Assembly (NCBI GenBank): GCA_019456225.1
Contig: VRUI01000009.1
Span: 1-64,000 of the forward strand
Direction: 5' to 3'
DNA length: 64,000 nt
From: Planctomycetota bacterium
Lineage (GTDB): Bacteria > Planctomycetota > Phycisphaerae > Sedimentisphaerales > Anaerohalosphaeraceae
The notes below the pieces were generated by a model that worked only from the letters and a program-made list of their open reading frames with translations, was not told where the DNA came from and searched no databases. Every line of letters begins with the position of its first letter. The first letter of the stretch is position 1. The position numbers and the translations under genes are program-made. This document shows positions 1,979 through 63,700 of this stretch, piece after piece.

Positions 1979-3196
1979 ATGAAACCCGCTAAACATCAAT
2001 ATACCATTCTCAAACAAATATGCAACCACATTCCCGCTCATCTTGTGCCAAAACTTGCACGATCTTTCGGCGTAGACAAAAAGGCACGGTCATTTTCGCC
2101 CTGGTCACACGTTGTTTCCATGCTTCATGTCCAAATCGCTCATAGTCTCTCGCTCAACGATGTCGCCGATACGCTGCGTAATCACTCGGGGGTTTTGACC
2201 ACTATTCGTGGTGCGACACCGCCCAGCAGGAACGGTTTGTCGCATGCAAACCGCGTTAGAGACCCCAATATGGCACAAGCACTCTTCTGGGATGTGCTGT
2301 CCCACATACAAATCAAGCATCCCAATTTCGGACTTGGCCACAAGTATTCCGGTCTGCCAAAGCGATTCAGTCGAGCGGTCTATGCGGTTGACTCGACAAC
2401 GATTCAGCTTGTTGCCAATTGTATAGACTGGGCTAAGCATCGAAGACGTAAAGCTGCCGCAAAGTGTCATATGCAGTTGAATCTCCAGACATTTCTGCCT
2501 CAATTTGCTATCGTCAAAGAAGCTTCGACGCATGATTCAACCGAAGCATATCGGCTCTGCCTGAACCTCAAAAGTGGCGAAATAGCGGTTTTTGATAAGG
2601 CATACGTGGATTTTACGCATCTCGCTGATCTTGACAAACGTGACGTTTTCTGGGTTACGCGAGCCAAAAGCAATATGAAATATCATATTGTTAAGCAGCA
2701 TACAAAACCCAAAAGCGACATTGTTTACGATGCCTTAATCGAACTTGAATCGCCGAAAAGCAAGAAAGCATACCCGCAGAGATTGCGTCTAGTCATGGCT
2801 TATGTGGAAGTCAACAGCGTTAAAAAACTGATGACGTTTATCACGAACAATATGATCTGGGCACCGAGTAGCATTTGCGATCTGTATAAATGCCGCTGGG
2901 GTGTAGAGGTGTTTTTTAAGCAGATTAAACAGACTTTGCAACTGGGTGACTTTCTTGGGCATAGCAAAAATGCAATCCTATGGCAAGTCTGGATGGCACT
3001 GCTGGCGTACGTTTTAATACGGTATATTGGCTTTCTTGGAAAATGGAAAGGATCATTTAGCCGGTTGTTTACATTACTACGTGGAGTATTATTTAGCCGC
3101 TTGGATGCTTTTAGTGTTATGTCGCTCTGTGGGACAGCACGCGGTTCACCACGTATGATTGGTTGCCCACAGCAGGCTTATTTGCCGGGTTTTTGA
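1979..3196 (+). CDS. IS4-family transposase (DUF4372 N-terminus)
   Basis: Intact transposase of 405 residues. The N-terminal 75 residues match the DUF4372 domain typical of this IS4 subgroup. The DDE catalytic set is visible: the first Asp in AVDSTTIQL (about 137), the second Asp in VFDKAYVDF (about 206), and the YREK signature in YKCRWGVEVFFKQIK (about 302-316) with Glu near 309. A start ATG with a nearby AGGAG (1969-1973) fits good translation. It moves DNA by a cut-and-paste mechanism (family knowledge). There is no frameshift or premature stop, so it may be active. Flanking genes (signalling protein, pterin genes) are unrelated cargo-free chromosome genes. Confidence 0.93.
   Translation: MKPAKHQYTILKQICNHIPAHLVPKLARSFGVDKKARSFSPWSHVVSMLHVQIAHSLSLNDVADTLRNHSGVLTTIRGATPPSRNGLSHANRVRDPNMAQALFWDVLSHIQIKHPNFGLGHKYSGLPKRFSRAVYAVDSTTIQLVANCIDWAKHRRRKAAAKCHMQLNLQTFLPQFAIVKEASTHDSTEAYRLCLNLKSGEIAVFDKAYVDFTHLADLDKRDVFWVTRAKSNMKYHIVKQHTKPKSDIVYDALIELESPKSKKAYPQRLRLVMAYVEVNSVKKLMTFITNNMIWAPSSICDLYKCRWGVEVFFKQIKQTLQLGDFLGHSKNAILWQVWMALLAYVLIRYIGFLGKWKGSFSRLFTLLRGVLFSRLDAFSVMSLCGTARGSPRMIGCPQQAYLPGF
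1979..3196 (+). mobile_element. IS4-type insertion sequence, ends unresolved
   Basis: Minimal extent, taken as the transposase gene itself. I looked for terminal inverted repeats in about 1850-1978 and 3197-3340 and found no convincing pair, so the true ends and target duplication are unknown. Confidence 0.6.
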
Positions 3197-4216: not shown

Positions 4217-4798
4217 TTAGCTTCCGGCGTTGATTAAACTCAATACTTCGCTTCTGCTTCTTGGGTCGCTCTTGAAGAGGCCGCGAAGGGCTGATGTTAC
4301 CATTACGGAACCGGCTTTTTTGATGCCCCTGATGGTTGTGCAGCTGTGGGAGGCCTCTATTACGACGGCTGCTCCTTTGGGCCTGAGGCTTTCCATGAGG
4401 AAGTCGGCGATCTGGCCGGTGAGACGTTCCTGTACCTGGAGGCGGCGGGCATAGTTGTCGAGTATCCGGGCGAGTTTGCTTATTCCGATCACGCGGCCGT
4501 CGGGGAGGTATGCGATGTGGGCCTTGCCGATAAACGGCATCATGTGGTGCTCGCAAACGCTGTAGAACGGTATGTCCCTTAAAAGGACCACTTCGTCGTA
4601 TTCCTCGCGGAAGGCGTGGATGTGCTCGGCCGGGTCGGAATGCGTACCGGCAAGGAGCTCGGTATACATCTTCGCGACGCGCCTAGGCGTATCGACAAGC
4701 CCCTCACGGGCCGGGTCCTCACCGAGTGCGACAAGGATCTGATGGACAGCATCTTCTATTTTCTTCGTATCTACTTTGCTTTTTAGATCATCGCTCAT
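4217..4798 (-). CDS. folE: GTP cyclohydrolase I
   Basis: 193 residues, normal for type I GTP cyclohydrolase, which converts GTP to 7,8-dihydroneopterin triphosphate in the cytosol. The zinc and active-site segment [18 protein letters not shown] and the later SCTTIRGI segment with the second zinc Cys are present, as is [11 protein letters not shown]. The start ATG at 4798 has AAGGGG about 8 nt upstream on the minus strand. It is the first gene of a two-gene unit with the PTPS-like gene and is preceded by a copy of the two-hairpin repeat (4813-4900). Confidence 0.96.
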
Positions 4799-4812: not shown

Positions 4813-4900
4813 TTCAAACCGGCCTTTGCCGGTTTGAAATTGATTATTTATTATTTATTATTGATTATTTAATGATTCGGCCATTCGGCCGAGGCTCTTT
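4813..4900 (-). repeat. Two-hairpin intercistronic repeat, copy upstream of folE
   Basis: One hairpin at 4814-4838 (arms caaaccggc / gccggtttg), then an AT-rich run of attattt-like units, then a second hairpin at 4879-4892 (cggc ... gccg). It has the same modular order as the copies in the acc, hyp and degT regions, but in the opposite orientation relative to the gene. Confidence 0.75.
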
Positions 4901-4968
4901 CATTAATAATATTGCAACATGTAAATGCCTGTTTGTCAAGGATTTAAAGATAATCTGGCTTAATTAAA

Positions 4969-11324: not shown

Positions 11325-11466
11325 GGACTGAACTATACTTGAAAATACAGCGATTAGCAATTAGCGATTAGCGATTAGATCCAGGTTGAAAATTAGGTTA
11401 GTTTTAGGTATAATCAGGTTGCACAGGTTGCCGATTATTACTAATTTGAACATTTTGGATAAATAT

Positions 11467-19383: not shown

Positions 19384-20724
19384 CTACTCCATGTGTTTTT
19401 CGATGAATGATGTGTCTATATTATTTTCGACATAGAGGTTGTGGCGGAGGATTTCCAGGCATACAGGGATCGTTGTCTTAACAGGGCTTACCTTAAACTC
19501 TCGCAGTGCGCGTTTCATTGTGTTGATGGCGCTATCACGGCTGTTTCGGTGGACGATCAGCTTACCTATCATGGAATCGTAATACGGCGATATGACATAG
19601 CCTTGGTGGACGTGCGTATCAAGTCGCACTCCGGGGCCGCCCGGCGGGATGAACTCTGCGATCCTGCCCGGACTCGGAGCGAAATCCCTTGCCGGGTCCT
19701 CGGCATTGATCCTGCATTCGATTGCGGCACCGTTGAGCTTGATATCCTTCTGGCGAAGTTCGATGCGCTCACCGCTTGCGACCTTCAACTGCCACTTGAT
19801 AAGATCCTGGCCGGTAACGATCTCGCTTACAGGGTGTTCGACCTGGATGCGCGTGTTCACTTCGATAAAGAAAAAATTCTTATTCTTGTCGAGCAGAAAT
19901 TCGACAGTCGCGGCACCGACATACTCGGTCTGCTTAACCAGGCGGATAGCCGCACGGCAAAGTTCTTCGCGGGTCTTGTCGTCAAGGATACCGCATGGAG
20001 CTTCTTCGATAAGTTTCTGGTGACGCCTCTGGATCGTGCAGTCTCTTTCATAGAAATGAAGAGCATTGCCATGGCTGTCGGTCATTACCTGCACCTCGAT
20101 GTGGCGGGGTTCTATGATAAACTTTTCGATGAAAAGGGTTCCGTTGTTAAAGCAGGCTTCGGCTTCGGACCGGGCGGCTGCGAAAGCGCCGTGCATGCTG
20201 ATATCGTTATGGACAACACGCATACCGCGGCCGCCGCCGCCTGCTGCAGCTTTGAGGATCACGGGGTAGCCCAGTTTGTTTGCCATTTTGAGCGCTTCGG
20301 CTTCGTCTTTGAGAGCATCCTTCGAGCCTGGAACAACGTCGACTTTGGCTTTCTTTGCGATCTCTCTTGCTTCGATCTTGTTGCCGAGCATCCGCATAGC
20401 CTCTGGCGACGGTCCGATGAAACCGATACCGCAATCACGGCAGACCTCGGCGAAGTGGTCGTTCTCTGCGAGGAAACCATAACCGGGATGGATAGCTTCA
20501 ACGTCGGTGATCTCAGCGGCACTGATTATCGCCGGGATGTTGAGGTAGCTGGCAGCCGCGTTTGCCGGGCCGATACAAACTGCCTCGGTTGCCTGCCTGA
20601 TATAAGGTGCGTCTTTGTCAGCCTGCGAAAAAACGGCGACCGTCTCGACACCAAGTTCCTGACAGGCGCGAATTATTCTAAGGGCGATCTCGCCTCTGTT
20701 CGCTATTAAAATTCTTGAAAACAT
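19384..20724 (-). CDS. accC: Acetyl-CoA carboxylase biotin carboxylase subunit
   Basis: 446 residues, normal. It carboxylates biotin on BCCP using ATP and bicarbonate, the first step of malonyl-CoA synthesis. It has the N-terminal [27 protein letters not shown], the glycine-rich ATP-grasp loop [26 protein letters not shown] and ECRINAED. It follows accB by about 76 bp filled by a two-hairpin repeat. GGGCT of the repeat lies just upstream of the start ATG. Long open frames on the opposite strand here are shadows. Confidence 0.97.
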
Positions 20725-20725
20725 A

Positions 20726-20800
20726 AGATAGCCCGGCTAAAGAGCCGGTTCCTAAATTCGTAATTGGTAATTTTCGAACTGACCGGCAGGTCGGCTTGAG
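20726..20800 (+). repeat. Two-hairpin intercistronic repeat between accB and accC
   Basis: The hairpin agcccggct / agccggtt (loop aaag) is followed by AT-rich taaattcgtaattggtaatt and a second hairpin gaactgacc / ggtcggcttg. It fills the whole gap between the accB stop and accC start. Confidence 0.75.
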
Positions 20801-32414: not shown

Positions 32415-32442
32415 AATCACCTAATCGCTAATTGCCAATCGC

Positions 32443-33039
32443 TTATCGAAACATCTCCTTCGGGCCTTCTTTCACCATATGCACCGAACCGTCAAGTGTC
32501 GCATAATTGACACCTTTTTTATGCCACCTGTGTGCTGTAGGAATACCAGAAAACCAGGCATCACTAAAAACCAGAGTCTCACCGTTCATTGAATCCGTTA
32601 TTTCTCTTGACCAGGGTATGTCTTTGCGAAGAAACTTGCTCAAGTATGACAGTGTTGCTCTTTCGCTGTAGGAAAAGTAAAAATAGCCAATATTGCCGGC
32701 GGCCAAATTCTCCGGCGAAAACTTAAGCTCATCCTTTTTTTCACTTGGACAAAAATAAATCTTTTCATTGCTTATATATTTACCGCTCCTTAGTTTGTCG
32801 ATCAATAACGTATGCGGATTATGAAGCTTGCCGCTGACAGGCAATCTTGAGTTATAATCGTTAGCATACGCCCTGCAGCCCAGCAGCAGATTTTTCAGAT
32901 TACTCCTGCACACAATCAATCTGGACTGATCTTTTGCGCGCCCTGCCGCAGGGACAATTATAGCCAGCAAAAAGCTTATTATTGCAATTACAATCAATAA
33001 CTCTACCAATGTAAAACCTTTTTTAAAGCCTTTAGACAA
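32443..33039 (-). CDS. Pseudopilin-like protein with H-X9-DG motif
   Basis: 198 residues, TTG start with AGGAG about 10 nt upstream. The N-terminus carries the prepilin cleavage signature KKGFTLVELLIVIAIISFL followed by a hydrophobic helix, so it is a prepilin-peptidase substrate exported by a type II/IV-like system. The C-terminus HKKGVNYATLDG fits the H-X9-DG motif common in Planctomycetes and Lentisphaerae. It follows the dockerin-like gene with a 2-bp gap. Function unknown beyond surface or secretion roles. Confidence 0.85.
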   Translation of the reverse strand: MSKGFKKGFTLVELLIVIAIISFLLAIIVPAAGRAKDQSRLIVCRSNLKNLLLGCRAYANDYNSRLPVSGKLHNPHTLLIDKLRSGKYISNEKIYFCPSEKKDELKFSPENLAAGNIGYFYFSYSERATLSYLSKFLRKDIPWSREITDSMNGETLVFSDAWFSGIPTAHRWHKKGVNYATLDGSVHMVKEGPKEMFR

Positions 33040-46906: not shown

Positions 46907-47554
46907 CTACTGGGTAATTTTTGATCTCAGCCAGTTGTACCAGTTTTCCATTCCTTCGCCGGTCGTTGCTGACAGCTGGAGTATCTCGGCCTTGTCGTTT
47001 ACTACTCTTATGTCTGCTATTACTCTTTCCAGGCTGAAATCTATGTAGTCTATCAGGTCGATTTTATTTATCAGAATCACGTCTGCTTTTGCGAAGGTTC
47101 CGGGATATTTGATCGGTTTGTCGTCGCCTTCCGGAACTGAGAGTACGACTACGCGGAGGTCCTCGCCAAGCACAAAGTCCGACGGGCATACGAGGTTGCC
47201 AACGTTTTCTATGAATATCACATCCATGCCGGCGGCGGGTATCGCCATTAGTGCGCCGGTTACCTGCTGGGCAGAGAGATGGCATGAACCTTTGGTCTCT
47301 ATCTGGACGGCACTTGCGCCGGCGGCACGGATCTTCTTGGCGTCTATGTCGGTTCGGATGTCGCCTTCTATTACGGCTATCTTTATCTCACCGGTCAGGT
47401 CGCGGATGGTTTGCGAAAGTATTGTTGTTTTACCCGAGCCCGGCGAGGAGATCACGTTTAAGCAGAGTATGTCGTTATCCGCAAAGAACTCGCTGTTTTG
47501 CATTGCACATTCTTCGTTTTTATCCAGTATTTTTTTGTTCAATGATATTTTCAT
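46907..47554 (-). CDS. hypB: Hydrogenase maturation GTPase HypB
   Basis: 215 residues. P-loop VISSPGSGKTTIL, metal-linked Cys/His region TKGSCHLSAQQV, and GNLVCPSDFVLGE. GTPase that inserts nickel into the NiFe hydrogenase large subunit with HypA. It lacks the His-rich N-terminal stretch of some HypB, so it is probably not a nickel store. Last gene of the hyp operon. The preceding gap to hypA is a two-hairpin repeat. Confidence 0.96.
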   Translation of the reverse strand: MKISLNKKILDKNEECAMQNSEFFADNDILCLNVISSPGSGKTTILSQTIRDLTGEIKIAVIEGDIRTDIDAKKIRAAGASAVQIETKGSCHLSAQQVTGALMAIPAAGMDVIFIENVGNLVCPSDFVLGEDLRVVVLSVPEGDDKPIKYPGTFAKADVILINKIDLIDYIDFSLERVIADIRVVNDKAEILQLSATTGEGMENWYNWLRSKITQ

Positions 47555-47576
47555 ACTAACCTTTTAAAACAATAAA

Positions 47577-47662
47577 TTGCATCGGCCGCAAGGCCGAATC
47601 CTCAATTCGTAATTCGTCATTCGTAATTCGTAATTTCAAACTGACCGCCAGGTCAGTTTGGC
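47577..47662 (+). repeat. Two-hairpin intercistronic repeat between hypA and hypB
   Basis: First hairpin cggcc-gcaa-ggccg, AT-rich attcgtaatt units, second hairpin caaactgacc / ggtcagtttg with a short loop. The hairpin overlaps the last codons of hypA (the stop TGA is inside it). Confidence 0.8.
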
Positions 47663-50095: not shown

Positions 50096-50126
50096 TTTTC
50101 TTCGTGACCCCGATTTTCAAATAAAA

Positions 50127-50220
50127 CAGCCTCGGCCGCAAGGCCGAATCCTAAATTCGTAATTAGTAATTCGTAATTAGTAATTAGTAATTCCAAACTG
50201 GCCGCCAGGTCAGTTTGGTT
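50127..50220 (+). repeat. Two-hairpin intercistronic repeat between hypC and hypD
   Basis: cggcc-gcaa-ggccg hairpin, AT-rich run of attagtaatt-like units, then aaactggcc / ggtcagttt hairpin just before the hypC stop at 50223. Confidence 0.8.
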
Positions 50221-52916: not shown

Positions 52917-52953
52917 GCAGGGCTTGCATAACATTTGTTTTTTAATAAAAATA

Positions 52954-53037
52954 GCCTCGGCCTTCAGGCCGAAACGACCATTATACATTATACAATAATC
53001 ATTATACATTTCAAGCTGGCCGACAGGTCAGTTTGAG
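52954..53037 (+). repeat. Two-hairpin intercistronic repeat between pgsA and hypF
   Basis: cggcc-ttca-ggccg hairpin, cattatacattatac AT-rich run, then aagctggcc / ggtcagttt hairpin directly after the pgsA stop at 53038. Confidence 0.8.
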
Positions 53038-56020: not shown

Positions 56021-56049
56021 ACTTTGTATAGTGTGGTTTTTTTTATAAA

Positions 56050-56136
56050 ATAGCCTCGCCCGTAAGGGCGAATCATCCATTATACATTATACAATAATCA
56101 TTATTCATTTCAAACTGACCAATGAGTCAGTTTGCG
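56050..56136 (+). repeat. Two-hairpin repeat downstream of the DegT gene
   Basis: gcctcgcc-cgtaag-ggcga hairpin, AT-rich cattatacattatac run, then aaactgac / gtcagttt hairpin next to the stop of the DegT gene at 56137. Confidence 0.75.
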
Positions 56137-57267
56137 TCAAAGCATTTCGTCCAGTGTTGCTTTTAGCTCTGTGGCGACTATTTCTACTTCCTGTTTCGTC
56201 AGGTTATTATGGAACGGAAGTGCCAGGGTGCTTTTGCATACTTCGTCGGTTATCGGGAAATCGCCTTCTTTCAGGCCAAGCTCTCCGCTGATGAACGGCT
56301 GGAGGTAGACCGGCGGGAAGTAGTTGCTTACCTGAACGCCCCTTTCGATCATGCGTTTTAGGATGGCGTTTCTGGTCTCAACAGTCAGTGTTTTGTCAGC
56401 GAGGCGGACGACATATACGAACCAGCTCATCACACAGTCCGCCGGTTCTGTCGGTACGATGAGCCTGTCATCGGCGCCGAGGATTTCGCGATACATATTG
56501 GCGACACCGCTGCGTTTTGCGACAAATTCATCGATCCGTGACAGCTGGACAATTCCCAATGCGCAATTAATATCGCTAAGCCTGAAATTATATCCGAGCC
56601 TGTCATGGGCGAGCCATCCGCCGCCTTTGCCCCGGCCCTGGTTACGAAGCGACTGACACAAATCCGCCAGCTCGTCATCGTTGGTCAGTATTATCCCGCC
56701 TTCGCCGGTGGTGATCTGCTTGTTGGGATAAAAGGCGAACGTACTCATAGTCCCGAAAGTACCGACCTTTTTACCGCCCAGTTCGGAACCAAGCCCCTCG
56801 CAGCTGTCCTCGATAACCAGGAGGTTGTGCTTTTTGGCAATGGCGCAAACTTCGTCCAGACCGGCTGGGTTGCCGAATACAACGACAGGCAGAATTGCCT
56901 TGGTCTTTTCGGTTATCTTATCTTCAATATTTGCCGGATCCATGTTCAGGCTCACCGGGTCAATGTCAACGAACACCGGTTTCGCCCCGGTCATCATGAT
57001 CGTAGTCGCCGAAGCGATAAACGTAAACGGAGTAGTGATCACCTCATCGCCTTCGCCGATACCAAGAGCCTTCATGCACAGATACAGCCCGCTTGTTCCA
57101 CTGTTTACCGCGACAGCGCGTTTCATACCGGTGTATGCGCAAAACGCATCTTCAAACTCACCGAGCTTAGGCCCCAGAGAAAGGTTTGGAGTACGCAGAA
57201 CATCGGTGACTGCTTTGATCTCAGCTTCTGTTATATCCGGACGAGATAAATTAACCTTAAATTCCAT
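56137..57267 (-). CDS. DegT/DnrJ/EryC1/StrS aminotransferase
   Basis: 376 residues. PLP-dependent sugar aminotransferase: KRAVAVNSGTSGLYLCMKALG, EDSCEGLGSELGGKKVGTFG, and PLP Lys in TFAFYPNKQITTGEGGI. It probably makes a 4-amino- or 3-amino-sugar nucleotide for polysaccharide. A GAGGCT from the adjacent repeat lies about 8 nt before ATG 57267 and may act as its ribosome site. Downstream of rubrerythrin by 74 bp. Confidence 0.92.
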   Translation of the reverse strand: MEFKVNLSRPDITEAEIKAVTDVLRTPNLSLGPKLGEFEDAFCAYTGMKRAVAVNSGTSGLYLCMKALGIGEGDEVITTPFTFIASATTIMMTGAKPVFVDIDPVSLNMDPANIEDKITEKTKAILPVVVFGNPAGLDEVCAIAKKHNLLVIEDSCEGLGSELGGKKVGTFGTMSTFAFYPNKQITTGEGGIILTNDDELADLCQSLRNQGRGKGGGWLAHDRLGYNFRLSDINCALGIVQLSRIDEFVAKRSGVANMYREILGADDRLIVPTEPADCVMSWFVYVVRLADKTLTVETRNAILKRMIERGVQVSNYFPPVYLQPFISGELGLKEGDFPITDEVCKSTLALPFHNNLTKQEVEIVATELKATLDEML

Positions 57268-57270
57268 AAG

Positions 57271-57340
57271 TATAGCCTCGGCCGTAAGGCCGAATCCTTA
57301 ATTTTGATTATTGATTTTTAATTTTTTATCTTTGATTTAT
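57271..57340 (+). repeat. Two-hairpin repeat, partial, between rubrerythrin and DegT
   Basis: cctcggcc-gtaa-ggccgaa hairpin and AT-rich run; the second hairpin is lost. The Shine-Dalgarno-like GAGGC on the minus strand derives from this hairpin. Confidence 0.7.
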
Positions 57341-57841
57341 CTATTCTATTTCGTTGAATTTGCTTGCCGGTACTCCGCATACGGGGCATCTTTCCGGTGC
57401 TTCGTCGAGGACGGTGTTTCCGCATACGCTGCAGACGTATATCTTGCTTTCGGCGAGGTCGTTGCCGTCTGCGACCTGTTTGGCTGCATCGTTGTAGAGG
57501 CTAAAGTGCACCTGCTCGACGGCCATAGCATTCTGGAAAGACACCAGTGCCCTCTTGTTGTTGTCGGCTTTAGCGTCTTCGATGAACCTGGGATACATGT
57601 CGGTAAACTCAAATTCCTCACCGCTCATAGCACCTGCCAGATTTTCCTTAGTAGTTCCAACGCCGTCCATTGCGCTCAGGTGTGCCAGTGCGTGGACAGT
57701 CTCGGCGGCTGCGGCTGCCCTGAAAAGCTTAGCGATCTGCGGCAAACCCTCAGAGTCAGCCTTCTTCGCAAAAGCGAGGTATTTACGGTTGGCCTGACTT
57801 TCGCCGGCAAATGCGTCTTGTAGATCTTCCATTGATTTCAT
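57341..57841 (-). CDS. Rubrerythrin
   Basis: 166 residues. N-terminal ferritin-like diiron domain (DAFAGESQANRKYLAFA; AAAAETVHALAHL; EQVHFSLY Glu/His set) and C-terminal rubredoxin Fe site (YVCSVCGNTVLDEAPERCPVCG, CxxC ... CxxC). Peroxide reductase in anaerobes; consistent with the anaerobic lifestyle inferred from hyp genes. AAAGGA about 6 nt before ATG 57841. Confidence 0.95.
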   Translation of the reverse strand: MKSMEDLQDAFAGESQANRKYLAFAKKADSEGLPQIAKLFRAAAAAETVHALAHLSAMDGVGTTKENLAGAMSGEEFEFTDMYPRFIEDAKADNNKRALVSFQNAMAVEQVHFSLYNDAAKQVADGNDLAESKIYVCSVCGNTVLDEAPERCPVCGVPASKFNEIE

Positions 57842-58360
57842 TGCATAATCCTTTCAAAACTTATCGTTATATTTATAGTTATCGTCTGACTATGGTATAC
57901 AATCACACGCAAATAATCAAATTAATATTGCTCGAAATAAAAGGAGCAGATATGCTCTGCAAAAAAACTCTAAATTCCCCCTGAATTGTGAACAAAACCA
58001 CAAGCTGAGTTAATGTCCAATTCAATAGTTGTTTCTTAAAAGACTCGTATAGACGGCATTTAGAGCACTTTAATATTTTCTGCTCCGCTTTATGCCGTCG
58101 AGAGGACAAGGCTGGCAAAGAAGGATACGCAGCAATATTGAAATATTGCGAGTAATCCTGATGCCAGACAGCCCAAGCCGCAACAGGCAGAAAGCGAGCA
58201 CGAAAAATTAAATTGCTCTAGTGCTTGTTTAGTATTTAGAATTCGCTTGCGTCCCGGCTTTACGTCGGGATAGTGCTTAGGAATTGTCCAACAGCCCCTT
58301 ACGCTCTCACGCTCCTGTGTTATGTGAAATCCTGATTCAACAGGACCAATTGCTAAACAA

Positions 58361-58495
58361 TCAACCAAACCAAGCCAAACCTGCCCAATCCAAACCTGCC
58401 CAATCCAAACCCGCCCGAGCCAAACCTGTCCAAGCCAAACCTGCCCAATCCAAACCCGCCCGAGCCAAACATGCCCACGCCAAACCTGCCCAACC
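58361..58495 (+). repeat. 15-bp minisatellite (ccaaacctgcccaat type)
   Basis: Eight to nine imperfect copies of a unit of the ccaaaccygcccaat/gag type. A shorter run occurs at 58841-58895. Translated it gives an artificial PAKSKPA pattern. Confidence 0.8.
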
Positions 58496-58646
58496 TCAAT
58501 CCTGCTTGTTACCTTCGCACTTGTCACCTGTCACCAATCGCGCGCTATGTCCACGAGTGACATTCTGGGTCAACATATACTATTGGCCCTGTAACTTGTC
58601 TTCATTCGCAGTTTTTGGGATGAAAATCCAATCAAAATTGGAGGTG

Positions 58647-58838
58647 TAATATCAATCTCAGCTAATTCAAACCGGTCATGCAATATTGTAATTCCCGCCA
58701 AGGCGTCAATCCACAGCCGGCAAAACCATAAGGTCGTCAAGTGAGTAAGTTAATTTAGTGGCAAATTAGTTCGGGTTTAAAATACTGTAAGACGCCCACA
58801 CAAAAGCGCGGGAGCGCCTTGAGCGAAGCGAAATCCGC
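58647..58838 (+). repeat. 192-bp direct repeat, copy A
   Basis: Matches 59141-59332 in all positions but one (gccaagg vs gccaggg) with no indel; offset 494 bp. Ends gcgaagcgaaatccgc. Contains cgtcaatcc and attcccgcc fragments of the hairpin repeats. Confidence 0.9.
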
Positions 58839-59140
58839 CCACGCCAAACCTGCCCAATCCAAACCCGCCCAAGCCAAACCTGCCCAACCTCAATCCTGCT
58901 TGTTACCTTCGCACTTGTCACCTGTCACCAATAGCACGCTATGTCCCGCAGTGACATTCTGGGTATACATATACTATAGCCACTGCAAGGCCTTTTATTT
59001 CCCCGACTGCATTCAAAATAAAAGCAATTAGTCGCCAGCGGTGCCATCGCCCCCTCCGGCCTCGATGGCTAAACCCGGGATCCCCATTTGATGCGGCAAA
59101 GACAGTAAAGCTTATAGGCGCAAACTACCTTATTTTCGTA

Positions 59141-62620: not shown

Positions 62621-63544
62621 TTAAGCAAACAGTGCATCAACAAATTCAGCAGGATCAAACTCAGCAATATCCTCAGGCTGCTCCCCTAACCCCACGAATT
62701 TCACTGGGATGTCTAGCTGGTCCTTAATTGCGATCACTATGCCGCCTCTTGCTGTGCCATCGAGTTTCGCGAGAAATATTCCTGTAACGTCGATAGCTGC
62801 GGTAAACATCTTAGCCTGCATTATAGCGTTTTGGCCGGTAGTGGAGTCCAGCACTAAAAGCACCTCTGTTGGGGCGCCAGGTATCTTTTTGGCTACGACA
62901 TTGCGTATTTTGGAGAGCTCATTCATCAAATGGGTCTGGGTATGCAGCCTGCCTGCAGTGTCCAGTATGAGGTAGTCTACATCCCTGGCTACGGCCGCCT
63001 CACAGGCGTCATAAGCCACGGCACTGGGGTCTGCGCCGGACTTGTGCTTTACTATCTGGACGCCGATCCGCTCGGACCAGATCGTCAACTGCTCAACCGC
63101 TGCGGCCCGAAACGTGTCGCATGCCGCTACGATGACCTCTTCGCCGTTCTGGCTGAGTGTATATGCGAGCTTGGCGATGCTAGTAGTTTTTCCGGACCCG
63201 TTAGTACCTGCGACCAGTATTACTGTAGGGCCGTTTTCGGCGGTGTGGAGCTGTCTGTCCTGATGGGGCCAGTAGCTTTTCAGTTTGTCTTTGAGGAATT
63301 CCAGGATGTCTTCGGTCTTTTCTATCTCCCGTTTTTTGTAGGCATCCCGCAAGTCGTTCATCAGCAGATCGGTTGTTTCTACGCCGATATCATCGCTTAT
63401 TAGGATCTCTTCCAGTTCGTCGAGCAGGTCGTCGTCGATCTTTCTGCCGATTGTCAGCACCGCAGATAAACTTGAGCTGATCTTAGAGCGTGTCTTGTCG
63501 AGGTGGTCTTTTAGAAATTGTACTGTCTTTCCGAATATTCCCAT
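62621..63544 (-). CDS. ftsY: Signal recognition particle receptor FtsY
   Basis: 307 residues. Four-helix NG domain with GTPase signature GTNGSGKTTSIAKLAY, DTFRAAAVEQL, DTAGRLHT and TKLDGTARGG-type AKLDGTARGGIV. It lacks the acidic A domain of E. coli FtsY and begins at the NG domain. Membrane receptor for the SRP; the SRP RNA is at 34967-35069. Minus-strand, with repeat copy at 63545-63625 upstream. Confidence 0.96.
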   Translation of the reverse strand: MGIFGKTVQFLKDHLDKTRSKISSSLSAVLTIGRKIDDDLLDELEEILISDDIGVETTDLLMNDLRDAYKKREIEKTEDILEFLKDKLKSYWPHQDRQLHTAENGPTVILVAGTNGSGKTTSIAKLAYTLSQNGEEVIVAACDTFRAAAVEQLTIWSERIGVQIVKHKSGADPSAVAYDACEAAVARDVDYLILDTAGRLHTQTHLMNELSKIRNVVAKKIPGAPTEVLLVLDSTTGQNAIMQAKMFTAAIDVTGIFLAKLDGTARGGIVIAIKDQLDIPVKFVGLGEQPEDIAEFDPAEFVDALFA

Positions 63545-63625
63545 TGTTACTCCGGGCTTTCAAATGAATAATGTATATTGTCTAATGTATAATGAATGAT
63601 ACGCCCTTTCGGACGATACTATATT
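63545..63625 (-). repeat. Two-hairpin repeat, partial, upstream of ftsY
   Basis: On the minus strand gtccg-aaag-ggcg-like hairpin and cattatacattagacaat AT-rich run, like the copy at 56050-56136; the second hairpin is degraded. AT run also resembles 27490-27515. Confidence 0.6.
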
Positions 63626-63700
63626 ATATAAGAGTTTGCCAGAAAATTGGTAAAATTTCAAGTATATAAAAATTTTGTATATTACATTGGCGGATTTCGT

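Follow-up and report, generated by a model that had tools for sequence, protein, structure and literature searches.

Copies of the repeat in the hyp region and elsewhere in the window

The window (the whole 64-kb stretch of DNA that was analysed) belongs to a genome that, judged by the relatives of its HypD, falls within the Planctomycetota, Phycisphaerae, and probably the Sedimentisphaerales. Several of its intercistronic gaps hold copies of one modular repeat, which was confirmed by coordinate reading and a repeat search. Read 5' to 3' with transcription, the layout is the stop codon of the upstream gene, a hairpin B (CAAACTGACC-loop-GGTCAGTTTG), an AT-rich core, a hairpin A (TCGGCC-loop-GGCCGA) and then GGCTATTTTATTAAAA. 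The hypA-hypB copy spans 47568-47662 on the minus strand, with hairpin B at 47637-47660 (CAAACTGACC..GGTCAGTTTG), a core of 7-nt units (heptads) at about 47598-47636 and hairpin A at 47582-47597, after which a linker runs to the hypB ATG at 47554. The hypC-hypD copy (50118-50219, minus strand) has the same parts (hairpin B at 50194-50217, a heptad core and hairpin A at 50132-50147). Also on the minus strand are copies in the pgsA-hypF gap (52943-53037, core type b), in the accB-accC gap (20720-20800, with the accC ATG 9 nt past hairpin A) and straight after the stop codon of a gene for a DegT-family aminotransferase (56042-56136), as well as a part copy in the rubrerythrin-DegT gap (57264-57343) that consists of the core and hairpin A (57278-57296). 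The plus strand carries a copy upstream of and antisense to folE (4813-4906; folE, encoding GTP cyclohydrolase I, at 4217-4798, minus strand), a degraded copy with core and hairpin A upstream of and antisense to an ftsY-like gene (63533-63630; gene at 62621-63544, minus strand) and a diverged ninth copy with an insertion in hairpin A (1639-1755), which is absent from the earlier note on this DNA. A DDE_Tnp_1/DUF4372 transposase gene (1979-3196, plus strand) lies about 220 nt from this ninth copy.

All eight places listed in that note matched a covariance model that was built from 18 copies (including those at 47568, 50118 and 4815, the other places in the window lying outside the training set), with scores from 40.8 to 97.7 bits: 97.7 for hypA-hypB (47568-47660), 95.8 for the copy after the DegT gene (56042-56134), 92.1 for hypC-hypD (50118-50217) and for the copy upstream of folE (4815-4906), 82.6 for pgsA-hypF (52943-53035), 48.5 for accB-accC (20720-20798), 46.0 for the part copy and 40.8 for the degraded copy. 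The ninth copy scored 56.0 bits. The make-up of two hairpins around a core that had been described for the repeat applies to most listed copies, but the caaactg hairpin (hairpin B) is absent from those at 57271 and 63545. One hairpin indeed abuts the upstream stop codon: the TGA of hypA lies inside hairpin B, and the distance is 5 nt in hypC-hypD and 2 nt in both pgsA-hypF and accB-accC. The other hairpin had been said to abut the downstream start, which is true of accC and DegT (ATG 9-10 nt past hairpin A) but not of hypB (about 27 nt) or hypD (about 69 nt). Likewise, a location in operon gaps does not extend to the copies at 4813 and 63545, which lie on the opposite strand, or to the one at 56050, where about 875 nt separate it from the next called gene after DegT.

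Other kinds of repeat were seen in the window as well, namely a tandem 15-nt repeat in two blocks (AAGCCAAACCTGCCC type, 58342-58900) and a 195-nt repeat with 99% identity at 58644 and 59138.

Copy number and structure

The earlier note had counted at least eight copies or part-copies; the covariance-model search, in which 150 candidates were scored, found at least 150 in the 4.45-Mb genome, and the repeat is thus real and far commoner than was first described. A simple hairpin-A pattern gave 36 forward and 30 reverse matches genome-wide, against 0 forward and 1 reverse for the reversed-pattern control. Two stable predicted hairpins flank an AU-rich linker, with predicted folding z-scores of -3.6 to -4.4 for four copies and of only -2.0 for the accB-accC copy. 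Among 95 aligned paralogous copies, two-sided (compensatory) changes were found in 15 of the 16 stem pairs, and 93.6% of the stem cells were paired, compared with 84.8% after shuffling and at most 52% after sliding. The only match to Rfam 15 in the window at gathering score was a small SRP RNA, leaving the repeat without an Rfam match, and our literature search returned no paper describing such repeats in Sedimentisphaerales.

Position and polarity relative to genes

Gene context was taken from a purpose-built codon-usage gene caller, with which start codons are approximate, and the sample consisted of 767 kb of stretches that were chosen for holding copies; the genomes are drafts. Context could be assigned for 116 of 118 copies, of which 88 lie between genes of the same sense, 7 are antisense, 13 lie between convergent and 8 between divergent genes. 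Between co-oriented genes (95 sampled copies) 88 are thus oriented with transcription and 7 against it (p = 6e-19). The same polarity was found in a genome of another genus (G002), with 14 same-sense and 3 antisense copies. For copies above 60 bits with an upstream gene on the same strand, the element starts between -15 and +10 nt of the upstream stop codon in 55 of 64 cases, and exactly at -8 in 14 of the 64, in which the stop codon is the TGA within CAAACTGACC and is supplied by the element. At the other end, hairpin A ends in GAGG in 68 of 96 copies, and 12 of the 96 have an in-frame ATG 5-14 nt past hairpin A, such that the element supplies both the Shine-Dalgarno-like end and the ATG. The genome-wide search and orientation check proposed in the earlier note therefore yielded a sense bias between co-oriented genes, and the random placement that it had named as fatal to its reading is contradicted by the orientation, by the anchoring to stop codons and by the polarity in the other genus. 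Its claim that the element can give the Shine-Dalgarno sequence or the last codons is borne out by DegT, whose Shine-Dalgarno and start are provided by GAGGCTATACTTATG of the part copy, and by the hypA stop codon, and it concerns a minority of copies genome-wide.

The polarity would also be accounted for if the element were a portable internal promoter, in which the end of hairpin B and a type-b core (ATAATGT) form TTGAAA-16-TATAAT and drive the downstream gene. Such a sequence is found on the sense (minus) strand at 53014-52987 and 56113-56086, matching 11 of 12 positions of the sigma-70 consensus. A sense match of at least 10/12 occurs in 22 of 118 copies; the antisense strand has none, and each shuffled set gave 2.4. 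The matches are mostly confined to core type b, about one sixth of the copies, whereas the remaining cores make up the bulk of an equally polar set; besides, the sigma-70 consensus may not be that of this organism, and a consensus match is no evidence of function. We regard a promoter as a quite improbable explanation. Hairpin A with its T-rich stretch could act as an attenuator that partly terminates transcription and lowers expression of the downstream gene, and in the copies at 50127, 52954 and 56050 hairpin A was indeed flagged as resembling a terminator in the sense direction. The tail TATTTTATT is interrupted, though, and in some copies it contains or directly precedes the start codon, which makes attenuation quite improbable.

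The heptad core

The core is an array of 7-nt units: in 51 of 53 copies its length divided by 7 leaves a remainder of 1 or 2, and its identity at lag 7 is 0.75, compared with 0.15-0.42 at neighbouring lags. In the sampled DNA we found 70 arrays of period 7, of which 49 fall within listed elements, against 0-5 each for periods 4, 5, 6, 8, 10 and 11, 20 for period 9 and 11 for period 12. Core types are specific to a genome. The genome studied here (G000) has 61 cores of type AATTAC[GT], 23 of ATTGATT and 20 of ATAATGT, none of which occurs among twenty copies of G002, where 12 are AATGTCT and 6 AGTTTTT. Heptad arrays without hairpins (GATTAGC and AATAGAA types) were also seen in intergenic or intercistronic positions, at 11348-11380 and 32421-32448 of the window and in the accB-accC gap of G002 (L429), and 7-nt arrays are therefore more widespread than the two-hairpin element. 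In some copies (L088 3283-3391, L006 and L018) the heptad core contains, or is adjoined by, a smaller element of the ATTCCCGACGTAAAGCCGGGATGTTCCATAT type.

The 7-nt repeats might be bound as an array by a regulator that recognises RNA or DNA, as was proposed for the TAACTGA repeats of Beggiatoaceae. The stepping of core lengths by 7 nt, the lag-7 identity and the arrays without hairpins would fit, but the heptamer differs wholly between core types and between genomes, which means that no single binding sequence is kept, and we consider this highly improbable.

Full-length forms in the order identify a MITE family

In related genomes the two-hairpin layout is followed by a variable third module and then by the other end, GGTCAGTTTGAG. 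Of 161 genomes of the order, 23 have pairs of CTCAAACTGACC and GGTCAGTTTGAG at a distance of 156-184 bp, and further full elements were found at 125-155 and 185-215 bp; a control pattern gave no matches in any of these ranges. The full-length forms measure about 140-215 bp (mostly 157-161 and 168-171), have inverted ends CTCAAACTGACCG/CGGTCAGTTTGAG and combine constant ends with widely different interiors. Identical 7-mers flank 25 of 70 distinct full copies, compared with a mean of 1.36 and a maximum of 6 in 2000 flank shuffles. The target duplication thus measures 7 bp, and its consensus is the palindrome TWANTWA. From the inverted ends and the 7-bp duplication it follows that the repeat is a MITE family of the planctomycete order to which this genome belongs; terminal inverted repeats, a target duplication of fixed length, a size too short to encode a transposase and empty sites in relatives are all present. 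The predominant form of about 93 nt in G000 mostly lacks the right end, and these copies are MITE derivatives, not complete MITEs.

We found no transposase that could mobilise the family: no inverted end pair with a 7-bp duplication surrounds an ORF in the sampled DNA, nor does any occur as exact pairs in five element-rich genomes. The DDE_Tnp_1/DUF4372 transposase near the 1639 copy was considered as mobiliser and rejected, such ends being absent on reading. A scan of viral contigs for a 14-base end gave scattered single matches that look like chance. A stepping of full-element length by the helical turn of DNA (peaks at 158-159 and 169-170) was likewise dropped, since at 10.5 bp p was about 0.02 and many other periods did as well or better. 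In one full element of G000 (L196 2994-3174; C135:24293-24473) the right end and its flank are tandemly repeated (AAATTAATTCTTTTCCGGTCAGTTTGAG TAATTAATTCTTTTCCGG), a pattern that aberrant transposition may have left.

Since insertion of the family duplicates 7 bp of target with the consensus TWANTWA, and the cores are 7-nt arrays enriched in TWANTWA (60 occurrences against 23.4 +/- 4.7 in shuffles), the core can be read as a record of transposase activity. Arrays with units of the genome's own would grow as elements insert and are lost over and over, a 7-bp duplication staying behind each time, and selection would then reuse the product as an intercistronic mRNA module. We put this forward as an improbable reading.

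Excess of left halves

In both G000 and G002 the family consists mostly of a derivative of the left end, about 93 nt long and made up of hairpin B, heptad core and hairpin A. Left halves outnumbered right halves by 125 to 13 with the same HMM method in stretches that had been chosen for left halves, and a whole-genome BLAST search with the right half gave about 15 matches at E < 1e-5 against at least 150 left halves, again about a tenfold excess. Polarity is weaker in the full-length copies of relatives (26:8 between co-oriented genes), which also lie less often at stop codons. If the left half were kept for a role in the mRNA, one would expect G000 and G002 to show what they do, namely stronger polarity, abutment of stop codons and loss of the right half, although survivorship could underlie some of it.

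Empty sites and recurrent occupation

Close relatives have the same hyp gene order, and in all those compared the element is absent from both the hypC-hypD and the hypA-hypB gap. The former measures about 9 nt or less in most relatives and the latter is short in the relatives L128-L132 (about 8 nt in L128), whereas the insert in the present genome has shifted the hypA stop codon into the element. Two further gene pairs have a copy in G002 and none in G000. Other, unrelated palindromic inserts were observed in relatives at L136 2105-2250 (hypA-hypB) and L128 5889-6000 (hypC-hypD), the former containing GTCATTCCCGCGAAAGCGGGAATCCAG, similar to sequence within full elements of G033, G059 and G073.

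Of 30 genomes, five have element-like sequence in the accB-accC gap (G000, G002 with heptads only, G005, G011 and, antisense, G131). Each is of a different type and the gap is empty in congeners of G011, which shows that it has been occupied repeatedly. Four sites of G002 coincide with sites of G000 and have different cores, and may thus reflect repeated insertion rather than common descent. Given the recurrent independent occupation of accB-accC, we rejected common sites of the two genomes as proof of orthologous retention.

Discussion

The repeat represents a new MITE family, and its left-half derivatives constitute a stop-anchored, sense-oriented intercistronic cassette. As to why the left half persists, it may plausibly be retained as a module of the mRNA between cistrons. 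TWANTWA targets would arise naturally at TAA stop codons, and compact operons would tolerate insertion only there. Loss of the right half after insertion would then bring hairpin A, GAGG and the T-rich linker near the next start codon. In a polycistronic mRNA (the flanking genes presumably being co-transcribed) hairpin B would cap the end of the upstream cistron and hairpin A would shield the ribosome site of the next, while the unpaired, AU-rich heptad core could be the entry or segmentation site for an endonuclease such as RNase E. The genome does have an RNase E/G gene. Cleavage in the core would uncouple the decay of the two cistrons, with the products protected by both hairpins, and it is for the cap, the shield and the cleavage site that the left half would be kept. 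That the repeat may set the expression ratio within operons, as the earlier note proposed, is partly supported: the copies are far from randomly placed and a minority supply stop codons or Shine-Dalgarno sites, but the repeat is mobile, and relatives have these gaps empty or filled by unrelated inserts. We give the full explanation, a MITE with its left half retained as an mRNA module, an even chance of being correct.

The main rival to retention is tolerated insertion at a hot site. The element would then be a neutral passenger, i.e. a MITE with a target common at TAA stop codons, of which only insertions at stops survive in tight operons and antisense ones are purged or arise more rarely, so that position and polarity reflect survivorship without function. 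Unrelated insertions recur in the same gaps, the full-length copies of relatives are less polar and less often at stops, and relatives manage without the element, all of which suits a passenger; the strength of the polarity in G000, the tenfold excess of left halves and the stems that stay paired through compensatory changes do not. It is a serious possibility, albeit on the less probable side. Several observations count specifically against retention: the element is dispensable, as relatives with complete operons lack it, the unrelated palindromes in the hyp gaps of L128 and L136 fit mere tolerance, only 5 of 30 genomes have one of the differing element-like inserts in accB-accC, there are copies that run antisense or lie distant from any downstream gene, and the covariation of the hairpins could be partly older than insertion. 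Given the promoter-like type-b subset, the retained module may also have more than one effect.

Natural and engineered systems offer several comparisons. Synthetic tunable intergenic regions place a hairpin, an RNase E site and a second hairpin between cistrons; the two-hairpin layout around an unstructured linker is the same, whereas the planctomycete element is natural and its function putative. The Correia/NEMIS elements of Neisseria are small and non-autonomous with terminal inverted repeats, are transcribed with genes and are cleaved by RNase III in the mRNA. Their ends measure about 26 bp and they duplicate TA, in contrast to the CTCAAACTGACCG ends and the 7-bp duplication found here. 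REP/BIME sequences with RAYT are likewise numerous, form hairpins and often lie right after stop codons. REP hairpins bear GTAG or CGTC tags (PMC3733652); the CAAACTGACC and TCGGCC hairpins are without these, and the element has inverted ends and a 7-bp target duplication, features by which it falls outside this group. The TAACTGA heptamer direct repeats of Beggiatoaceae, Cyanobacteria and Bacteroidetes are intergenic and near start codons, with more than 100 sets per genome (PMC4679880). They consist of one fixed heptamer, and that account does not place them in a mobile element with two hairpins, while here many heptamers occur inside a MITE; as the core heptamers are AATTAC[GT], ATAATGT, TTATTGA, AATGTCT and others, the element does not belong with these repeats.

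The closest tested precedent, by analogy, is ERIC in Yersinia, where the orientation of elements at gene ends is decisive and they change transcript levels via an exposed RNase E site (PMC10969869, PMC2229807). The MITE-like ERIC/IRU elements of enterobacteria are intergenic, co-transcribed with their neighbours and structured as RNA, and are reported to have an orientation-dependent effect on adjacent mRNA (PMC2229807, PMC10969869); the present element is likewise intergenic, with a predicted RNA structure and presumed co-transcription. The planctomycete element differs in sequence, in its 7-bp target duplication and heptad core, and in its start at the upstream stop codon.

The agreement between the 7-bp target duplication and the 7-nt core repeats suggests a possible origin of intergenic heptamer arrays elsewhere. 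Whether small bacterial repeats act as passengers or as regulators is a long-standing question, which the order-wide set of empty sites, left-half derivatives, several core types and recurrent accB-accC occupation opens to comparative tests. The regulation of operons is hardly known in this phylum, and if retention of the left half is selected, the element would be a natural counterpart of engineered operon spacers that has been spread by transposition to more than 100 gene junctions.
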